From assembly GCF_002283555.1 (NCBI RefSeq), contig NZ_MVOI01000006.1, positions 762,040-826,039 of the forward strand: a stretch of 64,000 nucleotides of DNA. The letters are read 5' to 3'. Within the stretch, counting starts at the first letter, position 1; every line of letters begins with the position of its first letter. The notes below the pieces were generated by a model. The model saw nothing but the letters and a program-made list of their open reading frames with translations, had not been told where the DNA came from and made no database searches. The DNA comes from Rubrivirga sp. SAORIC476 (lineage in GTDB: Bacteria > Bacteroidota > Rhodothermia > Rhodothermales > Rubricoccaceae). A program made the position numbers and the translations under genes. This document shows, piece by piece, positions 55,949-61,616 of the stretch.

Positions 55949-56283
55949 GGCGAGGAGAGTCGGGCGACCTGGTCGCTCACGTGGGAGCGCATCTGGTCGA
56001 GGTTGTCGCGCATCGCGATCGTCATGCGGCCGTCGTGGTCGCGCACGTCGACGTGGACGCGCTCCAGCACGCCGGCCACGTCGCGCAGCACCTCGCGGTC
56101 GCGGTCGCGCTCCGAGATGCGCGCGTCGTTCAGGCGGCGGATCTCGGCCAGGTGCGCGGCGACCTGCTCCTGGAGGTCGGCCCGAGCCTTGACGAGGTCG
56201 CGCACCACCCAGGCCCCGCCCAGCAGCAGAATGGCCAGGATGGGGGAGAGCTTCTCCAGGAGCGCGAGGAAGGTGGTTTCCAT
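55945..56283 (-). CDS. Membrane-anchored coiled-coil protein, spanin/holin-like
   Basis: 112 residues from the ATG at 56283 (METTFLALLEKLSPILAILL), sharing one base with the endolysin stop. One membrane span covers residues ~8-26, followed by a long charged coiled coil (VKARADLQEQVAAHLAEIRR, LNDARISERDRDREVLRDVA). The layout is that of an inner-membrane spanin (Rz-like) or of phage hemolysin XhlA-like proteins, and it follows the endolysin directly, supporting a lysis role. Confidence 0.65.
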   Translation of the reverse strand: METTFLALLEKLSPILAILLLGGAWVVRDLVKARADLQEQVAAHLAEIRRLNDARISERDRDREVLRDVAGVLERVHVDVRDHDGRMTIAMRDNLDQMRSHVSDQVARLSSP

Positions 56284-57065
56284 CAGCCTCGCCAAGCGGC
56301 AGCGACGCCGCGCGCGTCGCCGTGCACGAAGGTCTTGTAGCGCCCGATGCCGCCGACGTAGGTGTAGCTCGCCCGGTCGGGGCCGGCTTCGAATCCGAGC
56401 TCACTCGCTGAGAACGGCTCACCGAAGACCGATTCGGAGAACGCCGGACCCAGGCTGTAATCCTTGGCCACGGAGGCAAGGACGCGAGCCTGGTCGGCGC
56501 TCAGGTCGACGTACAGCCGACGGAGGGCAGCGTCCACCTCGGCGAGACTGCGGACCGAGCTGCCAACCGGCGCGCGGTCGCGGGCCGTACACGCACGGTG
56601 CGCAGACTTCGACGCACCGCCGATGGCCGCGTTGTACGGGCCATCCCTGTGGATGCTGTTGAAGCGAAGCGGGACGCCCAGATGGTCGCGGACCTTCTGG
56701 TCGTACACGAGAAGCGCCAGCAGCCGGTAGAGGCCCCACGGCGGCGGGAGTCGGTTCTTGACGCCGCCGCGGGTCGTGCGGGCGTGGACGGCGACGATCT
56801 CGCGTCCGGAGATGTTGGGCAGGCGGAGGGCATCCACTGCCTGGGCGACGTAGGTGCCGTAGGCCGCGCGGTCGTCAGGCGCGGGGGGGCCGAAGACGGC
56901 GCCGACGCGGCGGATAGCGTCTGCGTGACGCTCGGCACGGGCGAGGCTGGCCGCAGCGTCCACGGAGAGGGCGGATTCCTCCAAGCCCTCGTTTTCGCCA
57001 GCGTCCACGGCGTCGAGTGGGAGGGCGTCGAGCTGGAGCCCGGCGAGGTCGATGAGGGAGGCCAT
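56283..57065 (-). CDS. Endolysin, peptidase M15-like (VanY/D-Ala-D-Ala type)
   Basis: 260 residues from the ATG at 57065 (MASLIDLAGLQLDALPLDAV). The N-terminal ~60 residues are a helical region. The M15 pattern follows: LRFNSIHRDGPYNAAIGGAS, then KSAHRACTARD (family SxHxxGxAxD, here with Cys in place of Gly), and the last zinc His in YKTFVHGDARG. It would cut peptidoglycan peptide cross-links. No signal peptide is seen, so release depends on a holin. It is the first gene of the lysis block and is preceded by a hairpin at 57077. Confidence 0.75.
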   Translation of the reverse strand: MASLIDLAGLQLDALPLDAVDAGENEGLEESALSVDAAASLARAERHADAIRRVGAVFGPPAPDDRAAYGTYVAQAVDALRLPNISGREIVAVHARTTRGGVKNRLPPPWGLYRLLALLVYDQKVRDHLGVPLRFNSIHRDGPYNAAIGGASKSAHRACTARDRAPVGSSVRSLAEVDAALRRLYVDLSADQARVLASVAKDYSLGPAFSESVFGEPFSASELGFEAGPDRASYTYVGGIGRYKTFVHGDARGVAAAWRG

Positions 57066-57076
57066 AAACGCAGAAA

Positions 57077-57116
57077 CGGCCGGCGCACCGCTCCGGGAGG
57101 AACGGGGCACCGGCCG
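57077..57116. promoter_or_regulatory. Hairpin upstream of the endolysin gene
   Basis: CGGCCGG and CCGGCCG arms, extendable to 14 positions with two mismatches, ending 11 bases before the endolysin ATG. It could be a terminator for the upstream small gene or a leader structure. Confidence 0.4.
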
Positions 57117-57241
57117 AGGGCAGGTGGGGAGGCCCGGCTGGATGTCTCTCCAGCGCGCCGCCGAGGGCGGGGGCTCAGCCTGCAACGTAGGGCCGCGAAC
57201 ACGGGTTCGCAAGGGACGCACTGCCTCGGCGACGACTTCCG

Positions 57242-57526: not shown

Positions 57527-58258
57527 TCAGTCCTCATGCTCCTCTCTAAGCACCTCTGTGAGTGACGATGCTACGAGAGCAGTCGGCACCGCGACGACAC
57601 CAAGCCCGACGATTAGCACGAGAACGGTGAAGGCTCTTCCGCCCGCTGTCACGGGCACGACGTCACCGTAGCCCACCGTCGTCAGTGTTGCGACAGCCCA
57701 CCACATCGCATCGAATACAGACGTGAACGCATCTGGCTGGGCCTCGTGCTCGAACTGGTAGATCCCAACCGAAGCCACGTAGACCGCCACGAAGCTGCCG
57801 AGAAGGTAGAGCGTGAGTTCGGCTCGGATCGCTCCAAACGCCATGCGATACCTCCGCATCGCCCGACTGTATCGCAGAAGCTTCAGCATGCGAACCAGTC
57901 GAAGCAGCCGAAAGGCGCGCACAGCCCGCATGTCGAACCCCAGCCCGAGCACGAACGGGAGCACAGCTACTAAGTCGACGACACCCAGAAAGCTCCTGGC
58001 GAACTCAGTCGGCCGCGGCGCCGAGTAGACCCGAAGGCCGTACTCGACAATGAATACCACCATGGAGGCATGCTCGAACCACCTCAGCGCCTCGTGGGCC
58101 TGTGCAGAGATGGTTGGCAGCGTGTCGACTGCAGACGCGACGAGTGAGGCGACGATCAGCCACTGGATGCTGAGGTCTACTGCTCTTCCGACCTGCGTCT
58201 CCGTCTCAAACAGAACGCGGTAAATCGAGGCTCTGCCTGGGCGTTGCAAACGTCTCAA
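57527..58258 (-). CDS. Voltage-gated-type potassium channel (6TM, TVGYGD)
   Basis: 243 residues. The six-segment layout is: S1 near 28-44, S2 62-78, S3 90-106, then S4 with regularly spaced arginines (RAVRAFRLLRLVRMLKLLRY, residues 111-130), S5 147-168, pore helix and selectivity filter TVGYGD at 194-199, and S6 208-232. The short C-terminal tail is acidic (REEHED) with no RCK domain. It should form a tetrameric K+ channel in the inner membrane. Its ATG overlaps the stop of the coiled-coil gene (ATGA), so the two are co-translated. A full voltage-sensor channel is unusual in a prophage. Base composition is less GC-biased than in the phage structural genes. Confidence 0.93.
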   Translation of the reverse strand: MRRLQRPGRASIYRVLFETETQVGRAVDLSIQWLIVASLVASAVDTLPTISAQAHEALRWFEHASMVVFIVEYGLRVYSAPRPTEFARSFLGVVDLVAVLPFVLGLGFDMRAVRAFRLLRLVRMLKLLRYSRAMRRYRMAFGAIRAELTLYLLGSFVAVYVASVGIYQFEHEAQPDAFTSVFDAMWWAVATLTTVGYGDVVPVTAGGRAFTVLVLIVGLGVVAVPTALVASSLTEVLREEHED

Positions 58259-59340
58259 CCCAGCTCGCCAAGGCCAGGGATGTCAGACCGCTTAAGGGGT
58301 TCTACACGGTCGAACCCCTTGGTCTTCTTGAACGACATCCGATGCATGAAGTTGGCGAGGGCGTCCGAGGCATCTGCTCCAGCCAGATTCAGTCGATCCA
58401 TCGTGGTCCGAGGCGTGTAGGCCGAAAGAAGGGCCGTCTCCTCGATGTGACCCGTCGACGGGTTGAGCATCTGGTCCGTTGCTGTCACGATCACGTGGTC
58501 GACTGGAAGAAGGGCCAGGGTCTCCGAAGCGACCCGAAGCACACAGCCCGCCACGTAGTCCTGGTGTATCTCGTTGTACATGCTCGCTGACATCTGGCGG
58601 CGTGACAGCTTCCCGCTCTGCAGCAGCGAAAGTCGCTCTTTCGGCAGGATGTCCTGGCCATGGACTTGAACACTGATGCTGAGGAGCACGTCGTCCAGTC
58701 CTCGGTCGTCTGCACGCGTGAAGCCGAAGGCGACCTCGGTACCGAGGTCGCCGATCTCAGAGAAGGGGTTGAGAGAGGTCAGAGCATCTCGTATGGCCTC
58801 GAGGTCTCCCGCCAGAACGCGCTCTGCCAGCGCGACGTCGCGGTCGATCGCGGCTGCGTCGGCCTCGTACTCTGCGACTGCCTGGTCGTGCCGTTGGTGA
58901 GCTTCCCGTACGGCGCGGTCGTGGGCTGCGTCATCCGCGCGCCTCGCTTCCTGCACGGCGAGCTCGAGCCGAGTCTGCTTCGACTCAGCCCGGCCCAGCA
59001 CCCGGTCGAGGATTCCCGGCTCGTAGGACGCGAGGGCCTGCAGCGCCTGATCCTCCCGGTCTGTAGTCCTCTCCGGGATCGACAAGCGTGGCGACTTCGG
59101 AGGGCGCGACGCGGCGACAGCGTCCCATTCGATCCGCGACGTCGATGCCCGACGATGTACGGAGGTCAGCGTCTCTACGAGGTCCTCGAACGCGGCCACG
59201 GTTTCGGCAGCATGAGCTCGATCGGCCTGCTGCATGAGCAGTCGATAGTGTTTCTGCTGCTCGCGCTCGCGTCGCCGGGCGTCACGCTCAGCTGCACGTG
59301 CGGCGGCCTGTAGAGATCGGACAGTTCCCTTCCAGCCCAT
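58255..59340 (-). CDS. Coiled-coil protein coupled to the potassium channel
   Basis: 361 residues. Residues ~1-60 are a charged coiled coil (MGWKGTVRSLQAAARAAERD, ARRREREQQKHYRLLMQQAD). A second helical region spans ~110-190 (ESKQTRLELAVQEARRADDA). From ~195 comes a globular alpha/beta domain with SLNPFSEIGDLGTEVAFGFT, PKERLSLLQSGKLSRRQMSA, NEIHQDYVAGCVLRVASETL, ALLPVDHVIVTATDQM and HRMSFKKTKGFDRVEPL. I recognise it only as a conserved hypothetical family seen in scattered bacteria and cannot name a function. It precedes the K+ channel with a 4-base overlap, suggesting that it senses something and controls the channel; this is inference. Confidence 0.8.
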   Translation of the reverse strand: MGWKGTVRSLQAAARAAERDARRREREQQKHYRLLMQQADRAHAAETVAAFEDLVETLTSVHRRASTSRIEWDAVAASRPPKSPRLSIPERTTDREDQALQALASYEPGILDRVLGRAESKQTRLELAVQEARRADDAAHDRAVREAHQRHDQAVAEYEADAAAIDRDVALAERVLAGDLEAIRDALTSLNPFSEIGDLGTEVAFGFTRADDRGLDDVLLSISVQVHGQDILPKERLSLLQSGKLSRRQMSASMYNEIHQDYVAGCVLRVASETLALLPVDHVIVTATDQMLNPSTGHIEETALLSAYTPRTTMDRLNLAGADASDALANFMHRMSFKKTKGFDRVEPLKRSDIPGLGELG

Positions 59341-59376: not shown

Positions 59377-60174
59377 TCAGCAGCCGTAAGTCCTGTTGCC
59401 GTTCGAGTTGATGTAGTACCGCCCGCCGCGTGGGCCGGTGTAGCACGTCCTCGTGGTCGCCGCTCGTCGAGCGCGAGGGGCGGGTCTGGCTCTCCACGTC
59501 GACTCGCAGGCGTCCCCGTCGCCATCCCGGTCGAGGCGGCGCAGGCCGATCGGGTCAGCATCGTAAGCCGCCTGGGCAGCCGACTCGCTGGAGAACGATG
59601 CGCACGTCCGGCTGTCTGTGCTCGGGACTCGCGACCCTGACGAATACGAGCGCCCCGATCGCGCAAAGGCTGCCCGAGCGGCGGGGGACGGATCCTCGTG
59701 CAGAAGGGGCTCCGATACGTAGCCGTCTGACCATCCGTCTCCAGCCCCGGAGACTCGGCACCACCCATCGTGGCAGACCTGCACCTGGACGAAGTCGTCA
59801 CGCTCCAACTGCCCGATCCGGCTGTTGGACGTTCCTGCCCCAGAGCGGACGTTGACGCGGCCGTGTGCGTAGCGGGTAGCTCCCGTAGCCCCTGGCTCGA
59901 CAGCCCACGGGTCCGGCTGCGCGATCCCAAACGCTGCCGCGTCGGTTCGGTGGTAAGGAGCTGTGCCGGACTCGCTGAAGTAGGCCAGGTATCGACCGCC
60001 TTCATCTGAGAGCCGGGAAAGCGTAAACGAGTCGCCGACCTGGAACTCGATGGGTGCTCCAGCACCAGAAGCTGGGAATGCCGTGCTGGACAACACGGCC
60101 GTGATGCGATCGCCGGAGTCAGGCTGCGAGAAGGCAGCTGCCGCTAGCAGGAAGGAGAGCAGGAGGGGTTTCAT
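59377..60174 (-). CDS. Secreted SH3b, Excalibur and PBCV-adaptor-like domain protein
   Basis: 265 residues from the ATG at 60174. A signal peptide (MKPLLLSFLLAAAAFS) is followed by a variable region, then a bacterial SH3 domain at ~105-165 (GRVNVRSGAGTSNSRIGQLE, VCHDGWCRVSGAG). Next is an Excalibur calcium-binding-like motif (DRDGDGDACES, near 220-230). The C-terminus GPRGGRYYINSNGNRTYGC matches the short basic adaptor motif first noted in PBCV viruses. This points to cell-wall or surface binding. It is 36 bases upstream of the coiled-coil gene, in the same leftward cassette. Confidence 0.78.
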   Translation of the reverse strand: MKPLLLSFLLAAAAFSQPDSGDRITAVLSSTAFPASGAGAPIEFQVGDSFTLSRLSDEGGRYLAYFSESGTAPYHRTDAAAFGIAQPDPWAVEPGATGATRYAHGRVNVRSGAGTSNSRIGQLERDDFVQVQVCHDGWCRVSGAGDGWSDGYVSEPLLHEDPSPAARAAFARSGRSYSSGSRVPSTDSRTCASFSSESAAQAAYDADPIGLRRLDRDGDGDACESTWRARPAPRARRAATTRTCYTGPRGGRYYINSNGNRTYGC

Positions 60175-60216
60175 GGTCAAGTGGGAGCCGGACATCGGCT
60201 AGGTGACTGTAGCGTT

Positions 60217-60738
60217 TCAGAGTTGCCCAAGCCCGACTGACACCAACAGATGCTGCTGTCCGGCTTCGAGTCTTGCGAAGTATGGGCCGACGAACTGGGC
60301 GGTAAAGGAGCCCGAAAACCCAGATCCCGTACCTATCCGATAGCCAGCTCCGAAAAGGGCCGCTCCGCCATTCGCGGGGATGCGGACCCCCACTTCAGGA
60401 GTCAATGCCAAGTATGGAGTCCCTGCACACCGTTCCGAGTTCGCGAACTGGCCATTCGCTGTATCCCTGCAGATGCCTCCGCTCTCTAAGACATACCTGT
60501 CGTCTCCTTCCCCGAACGTCAGGGACGCCCGAGCACTTGCAAATGCCGTAACAGTGCCTCCAGTGTGAGTTTGCACCAAGCCGCCGACGCCGAATGAAAG
60601 ACCGCGTCCGTTGTCTCCTACCACGATGTCAGCACCTCCAGTCGCGCTTTGTGCCCGAACATCGGAGACACCAAGCAAGCAGAGTCCCGCGAGGAGCGAG
60701 GCGGCCGCGACGATGTGTCTGGGAAGTTGCAATCGCAT
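60217..60738 (-). CDS. Exported beta-rich protein, outer-membrane-barrel-like
   Basis: 173 residues from the ATG at 60738 (MRLQLPRHIVAAASLLAGLC), with a signal peptide ending near VRAQ. The mature part alternates glycine and hydrophobic residues in short strands (GLSFGVGGLVQTHTGGTVTA, FASARASLTFGEGDDRYVLE, GGAALFGAGYRIGTGSGFSG), as in small membrane barrels. It ends LLVSVGLGQL. There is one possible disulphide (GICRDTANGQFANSERCAG). It is the first gene of the leftward cargo cassette, 42 bases before the SH3b gene. No family recognised. Confidence 0.65.
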   Translation of the reverse strand: MRLQLPRHIVAAASLLAGLCLLGVSDVRAQSATGGADIVVGDNGRGLSFGVGGLVQTHTGGTVTAFASARASLTFGEGDDRYVLESGGICRDTANGQFANSERCAGTPYLALTPEVGVRIPANGGAALFGAGYRIGTGSGFSGSFTAQFVGPYFARLEAGQQHLLVSVGLGQL

Positions 60739-60847: not shown

Positions 60848-61222
60848 ATGACACGATTAGCTGTCACCCCGGACGCGGAGTCTGTCGCCATGCTCGACAT
60901 CCCAGACCACGACGGCAGACCGACGGGCGACCTCGAAGACGCGTTCCGGCGCATCGACGCGGATCGGAGGCTCTACCTGGTGGACGGGGACCGGCGGGTG
61001 TTCCGAGCGGCGGCGGCCTGGGATGCTGGCAGCGCGATGGGCGTCCACCGCGAACTCGCGCTCTCCGTGGCCGACATCGCGGCGCGGCTCCACATGGACG
61101 ACTGGGAAGTCCGGAGACTGCTTATGGGGCCAGAGGACTATGTTCTTGGCGAGGCTCAGCGGATCCTGTACCCACCGCGGAGGCGCGGAGGACGCTCCGG
61201 CGGGGGGTCGGGGCGGCCATGA
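60848..61222 (+). CDS. Possible small DNA-binding protein, convergent with repressor
   Basis: 124 residues (or 110 from a later ATG at 60890). A helix-turn-helix-like stretch is seen at 70-95 (LALSVADIAARLHMDDWEVR), and an Arg/Gly-rich tail follows (PPRRRGGRSGGGSGRP). It is read rightward and overlaps the last ~100 bases of the repressor gene on the other strand, so one of the two 3' ends may be shorter than drawn. Supporting evidence is the sensible N-terminal composition; no family recognised. Confidence 0.45.
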   Translation: MTRLAVTPDAESVAMLDIPDHDGRPTGDLEDAFRRIDADRRLYLVDGDRRVFRAAAAWDAGSAMGVHRELALSVADIAARLHMDDWEVRRLLMGPEDYVLGEAQRILYPPRRRGGRSGGGSGRP

Positions 61223-61616
61223 ACTGGACGCGGACGGCCATCCGGACCTCGCCCGTGGCCGGGTCCACCAACTCGTAGTCCCACGCCTCGCCGACGACCC
61301 CGAGGTGGGCGTAGCGGTCTCGCTCAGGTCGTTCCGGGACCGACACCGCGTCGGCGACCGACCTGCCGAGGAGCGGGCCTGGCTCGGACGTTTCTGTGGA
61401 AACGTGCTTCGCTCCCTTTCCAGTGCGAAGCCATTCTGAGTGCACACCGAGGACCGGGACAACTGACTCGACAACTGCGCCTTCTCTCGGAGGCTCCTCT
61501 CGGTCCAAGTAGCGATCAAGCGTTCGTTTGCTGACCCCAGCGAGCCTAGCCAGTGACCCTGTATCGAGTCCCTTAGCGTTCAGGGCCTGCTGGAGACGGG
61601 AGCCAAATGCTGGCAT
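61122..61616 (-). CDS. Phage repressor (XRE-type helix-turn-helix, CI-like)
   Basis: 164 residues from the ATG at 61616 (MPAFGSRLQQALNAKGLDTG). The N-terminal helix-turn-helix is clear: SLARLAGVSKRTLDRYLDRE. The remainder is a linker (GPLLGRSVADAVSVPERPER) and a C-terminal dimerisation-type segment (WDYELVDPATGEVRMAVRVQ). No Ser-Lys autocleavage (LexA/S24) motif is evident, so induction may not use RecA cleavage. It is divergent from the early genes, with four copies of its likely operator in the gap. Confidence 0.8.
   Translation of the reverse strand: MPAFGSRLQQALNAKGLDTGSLARLAGVSKRTLDRYLDREEPPREGAVVESVVPVLGVHSEWLRTGKGAKHVSTETSEPGPLLGRSVADAVSVPERPERDRYAHLGVVGEAWDYELVDPATGEVRMAVRVQFMAAPTPRRSVLRASAVGTGSAEPRQEHSPLAP

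Follow-up and report, generated by a model that had tools for sequence, protein, structure and literature searches.

Overlapping genes for a coiled-coil protein and a voltage-gated-type potassium channel in a Rubrivirga prophage: a candidate exclusion cassette

The stretch of DNA analysed here, which we call the window, measures 64 kb (C6:762040-826039 of genome G000) and carries part of a genuine prophage. Genes for terminase, portal, protease, major head, tail and tape-measure proteins are located at 40-53 kb, all leftward in the window and all on the strand of the gene pair described below. The integrase gene lies past the right end of the window (L035:4292-5551, i.e., about window position 68.3-69.6 kb) and is followed by chromosomal genes. 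The late genes on the strand of the pair and the integrase bear out the prophage setting proposed earlier from the window sequence alone (the original prediction).

The pair itself consists of two genes on the minus strand. The first (58255..59340) encodes a protein of 361 amino acids with a coiled-coil (CC) region and an alpha/beta domain; the second (57527..58258) encodes a six-helix voltage-sensor K+ channel of 243 amino acids, counted from a TTG start. Their reading frames overlap by four bases, and codon-position GC supports both as coding. The original prediction had placed the two leftward frames and the four-base overlap correctly, but the shared bases read TTGA and not ATGA; judged from the sequence, TTG is the likely start codon of the channel gene.

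Directly downstream of the pair (to its left) and on the same strand, there are a small gene and a gene for an M15 endolysin-like protein (56283-57221, minus strand). On the other side, a minus-strand gene (59377..60195) located upstream at a distance of 36 bases specifies a secreted-type protein with a bacterial SH3 domain (Pfam SH3_3, 9e-9) and an Excalibur-like domain (5e-4, just under its Pfam cut-off). From the sequence, this gene is possibly a third member of the cassette; in L124, too, the CC gene has an SH3 gene after it, and in L153 the DUF4236 protein next to a channel contains a fused SH3 domain. The C-terminal GPRGG-YY motif of the SH3/Excalibur-like protein has a similar counterpart in the SH3 gene of L124. 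The next minus-strand gene (60217..60738), for a small protein with a signal-peptide-like start, has a low codon bias and no family match in a Pfam search, and its membership of the cassette is doubtful.

Between the cassette and the repressor gene to its right (about 61122-61616, minus strand) lies a plus-strand gene (60848-61222), thus opposite in orientation, which codon-position GC supports as coding. Its codon bias is good, and it shares about 100 bases with the end of the repressor gene. Because this gene intervenes, co-transcription of the cassette with the repressor is unlikely, and we dropped that idea. Promoter scans at the cassette found neither a sigma-70 nor a Bacteroidota-type promoter. 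The GC content of the pair and of its two upstream neighbours is 0.63-0.64 versus 0.71 in the late genes, which fits an acquired cassette; the CC gene is patchily distributed, with a match in four of the 244 genomes of the class and in none of the three congeners.

The channel protein matches Pfam Ion_trans (2e-35) and Ion_trans_2 (7e-18), above cut-off, as well as phrog_7872 (1e-41). Transmembrane segments S1-S6 are all present; S4 carries seven charges, one at every third residue (R111, R114, R117, R120, R123, K126 and R129), and the TxGYGD-type K+ filter reads TVGYGD at residues 194-199. By these features, the product is predicted to be a voltage-gated-type K+ channel. Amongst solved structures (PDB), Kv4.2 and other Kv channels are its nearest relatives by sequence, with KvAP lower down. 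The Pfam matches and the residue check agree with the complete 6TM channel, Arg-rich S4 and filter originally described. The effector had also been called membrane-depolarising, which K+ selectivity does not imply: with selectivity alone, the membrane would settle at the K+ equilibrium potential, a change that could be depolarising or hyperpolarising.

The CC protein has no family match in Pfam (E 0.1) or NCBIfam; against PHROG, it matches phrog_38135 (6.7e-30) over residues 156-348. Scans with the single sequence found no relative in phages or in viral or genome contigs, and such a query was insufficient: an alignment-based profile recovered 117 CC relatives in 84,980 species genomes, ranging from archaea to Bacteroidota. 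The full-length identity of the window protein to many family members is about 30-44%, and the homology, which covers both the coiled-coil and the alpha/beta parts, places it in the CC (phrog_38135) family. An AlphaFold2 model based on 83 sequences (pLDDT 94) predicts a long helical hairpin (about residues 3-176) and an alpha/beta domain (about 180-345; pLDDT 89 when modelled by itself), in agreement with the coiled-coil plus globular protein first proposed. The conserved residues of the family are mostly located in the alpha/beta domain. Fold searches against the PDB, with the whole model and with the domain alone, returned middling CamS-like and prodomain-like matches (Z at most 6.6), and a BFVD search one match (7e-4), to an uncharacterised protein. 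A PADLOC scan of both pair proteins gave no meaningful match; the assignment of the CC protein to JetC (E 0.007) was set aside as coiled-coil noise.

The CC family is wide and patchy, and its domain is joined to various partners. In fusion proteins, it precedes an Mrr_cat nuclease domain (hhalign 99%, E 6.8e-18), and the PADLOC mREase_IV model for type IV restriction (PDLC03663) spans the CC domain together with Mrr (5.8e-58). The window protein shares the homologous coiled-coil plus alpha/beta region with these Mrr-type enzymes, but it has neither the Mrr_cat domain (Pfam) nor the D-G-x-D...QxK motif, and the channel gene comes next instead. In one fusion protein (L225:100-1911), an RNase_T exonuclease domain is followed by the CC domain; in others, the CC domain is followed by FtsK_gamma (L224) or by a zinc ribbon (L111 and L064). 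It also forms the C-terminal half of many DUF4236 proteins, many of them on plasmids, and DUF4236-CC proteins occur in the ter regions of IncHI2 and Klebsiella plasmids. There (L131, L132), the gene is found between StiP/aldolase and TerW/TerY genes; matches related to the DUF4236-CC protein occur in over two thousand plasmid records. Another CC homologue is located directly upstream of SngABC, in a Shango defence operon (L039:4021-10578). Fusion to the Mrr nuclease and proximity to Shango suggest, at the sequence level, a defence-type sensor domain, as expected of the proposed sensor/controller. Proximity to defence genes, which the original prediction proposed to test for the pair, is seen in some family members and not in the window, where the neighbours scanned (phage genes, SH3/Excalibur, regulators) include neither SngABC nor TerB/TerY.

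The two window genes match PHROG 38135 (DUF4236 plus CC) and PHROG 7872 (6TM channel), both annotated as of unknown function; the window CC protein differs from the former in having no DUF4236. Full-length genes of both groups (4.5e-245 and 3.5e-77, respectively) are adjacent in a second provirus, L227, where they share a 4-base ATGA overlap and are located after the tail genes. The order of CC gene and then channel gene recurs in a KSB1 genome (L111, gap 43) and in a further genome from the same phylum (L224, added by a separate search), where the CC domain fused to FtsK_gamma precedes a channel with a gap of about 54. In two gammaproteobacteria (L061 and L065), the CC gene is followed by a gene for a pore-degenerate Ion_trans protein (L061:7346-8029 and L065:7064-7726) from which the K+ filter is absent, and the filter of the L227 channel (L227:4778-5614) is changed to TSVWLGD. 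These altered or absent filters suggest that selectivity may not always be needed, or that some copies may have decayed. A 2TM channel at a gap of about 330 (L099) was left out of the firm cases. In five further loci (L010, L153, L170, L179 and L188), a DUF4236 protein gene is directly before the channel gene; most of these DUF4236 proteins have a predicted membrane helix, and that of L153 the SH3 domain mentioned above.

Amongst 80 CC loci of the genome scan, a channel gene is directly downstream in three (L111, L061 and L065) and elsewhere in one (L098). Three such placements were observed versus 0.06 expected (p = 3e-5, or p = 1.6e-3 with the related cases L061 and L065 counted once). The channel profile was built with the three included, which inflates their E-values; Pfam independently confirms all three. 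The remaining 77 loci have no adjacent 6TM channel, and other viral channels occur without a CC gene, so that CC and channel genes mostly occur separately, an outcome that the original prediction had named as refuting it. The association is beyond chance and conserved in order, but facultative. Since CC genes and viral channels are for the most part unpaired, each functions elsewhere without the other. The tight coupling first proposed is supported by the overlapping frames and by distant genomes, the second prophage among them, that have the pair in the same order.

Might the two be independent accessory genes that are neighbours by chance within a moron cassette, with an unrelated task for the CC protein, for instance in DNA processing or in a stress response of the Ter type? 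Most members of the CC family do stand singly amongst unrelated neighbours, and some occur in Ter operons. We consider this unlikely in view of the overlapping frames, the same order with overlap in the second prophage and the placement statistics.

Lysogenic conversion would be another explanation: the channel would open upon depolarisation and restore the potential or the K+ balance of the host during stress (salt, osmotic or toxin), and the CC protein would regulate the channel. This role would suit a channel whose voltage sensor is intact and whose filter is selective, as is typical for Kv channels. The host has a homologous channel of its own (G000:C15, 34% identical to the prophage channel), as have most of the relatives examined, implying that ordinary cellular uses for such channels exist. 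The same observation also argues the other way, as the host is already provided for. The changed or missing filters in the L227, L061 and L065 partners would be odd for K+ homeostasis, and the CC domain associates with nucleases and defence loci; we regard this explanation as rather improbable.

Full channels of this kind had been supposed to be rare in tailed phages. This is so for isolated phages, but 6TM channels occur in 73 IMG/VR contigs (proviruses). An Acinetobacter "phage MD-2021a" contig with a channel gene was excluded as phage evidence, as it carries bacterial housekeeping genes. Around some 70 viral channels (L151-L223; contigs partly redundant), the 122 adjacent genes include 20 with HTH_3, 11 with Phage_integrase and four with DUF4236; the 110 genes located four or five positions off include one integrase and, amongst the families listed, no HTH_3 or DUF4236. 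This excess of repressor and integrase genes indicates that many such channels lie in the lysogeny region. Genes for secreted thermonuclease-like (SNase) proteins are found near phage-type K+ channels or, in a Geobacillus plasmid, directly after the DUF4236-CC gene (L152:5490-5924, L170:7253-7702, L308:2449-2811, the last called from one weak match to a home-made profile, and L129:6834-7982). That the pair would tune the membrane potential to time holin and endolysin action, or the prophage response to depolarisation, is very improbable: it is directly upstream of the small gene and the endolysin-like gene on the same strand, but the lysogeny module, and not the lysis module, is where the other viral channels are placed, and the L227 pair follows tail genes.

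The known systems with the closest layout are of the RexAB type (lambda, Sbash gp30/31, CarolAnn and RexABpp), in which a prophage gene for a cytosolic protein is followed by one for a membrane ion channel, near the repressor gene (PMC12894663, PMC6426596). The current view is that RexA senses infection and then opens RexB; in RexABpp of P. putida, two genes separate the system from its repressor (PMC12894663, PMC6426596). The window has the same gene order near a repressor gene on the same strand, but with the plus-strand gene lying between the cassette and the repressor gene. RexB types have four predicted TM helices and the window channel six, of the Kv type (Ion_trans); RexA and Sbash gp30 contain DUF4747, whereas the CC protein is unrelated and does not. 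For these reasons, we would say that the pair may work like RexAB, and not that it is a member.

We tentatively favour, at somewhat below an even chance, a prophage moron cassette in which a cytosolic sensor/controller acts on an ion-channel effector by analogy with RexAB. The sensor reading is suggested by one domain that occurs with nuclease or channel outputs in exchange, and the channel reading by the Pfam match and the S4 and filter residues. The alpha/beta domain of the CC protein would detect a phage-infection or DNA-related signal; the protein would then dock on the channel, or release it, so that the pore opens. The resulting K+ flow would shift the membrane potential towards the K+ equilibrium value, upon which the infected lysogen would cease to grow or the incoming phage would fail. 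Against this cassette reading, the pair borders the endolysin gene, and the plus-strand gene separates it from the repressor; most CC relatives and most viral channels are unpaired, the promoter scans were empty, and neither PADLOC nor the fold of the CC protein points to a function. A broader version, which we hold to be doubtful, is that a modular defence sensor domain carries swappable outputs (Mrr nuclease, RNase_T, voltage-sensor channel), that prophages use the channel version for exclusion, and that the repressor-adjacent provirus channels are further members.

Viral K+ channels are already known, namely chlorovirus Kcv and channels of vibriophage, mycobacteriophage and Lactobacillus phage PLE (PMC6163359). 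Like these, the window channel is virus-encoded with a GYGD-type filter, but most of them are small two-TM pores (PLE: four predicted; PMC6163359), whereas the window has a full voltage-sensor channel with a second gene. Our literature searches found no paper on phage-borne K+ channels as defence effectors, nor any on a Kv-type channel paired with this CC domain and recurring in prophages. RexAB-type systems, too, are already known.

If the favoured cassette reading is true, full Kv-type channels would be prophage effectors, their controller coming from a domain that accompanies Mrr-type nucleases. The pair would solve the RexAB problem a second time with unrelated proteins and would point to a role that voltage-sensor channels may have in bacteria. 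For the two PHROG families of unknown function, for DUF4236 and for the CC domain, it would provide a role that can be tested. Should the defence reading prove wrong, the clustering of provirus channel genes at repressors and integrases is still a pattern needing explanation. Recurring in unrelated viruses and bacteria, the pair is a candidate, open to testing, for a device that couples an alarm to an ion leak and may act against rival viruses.
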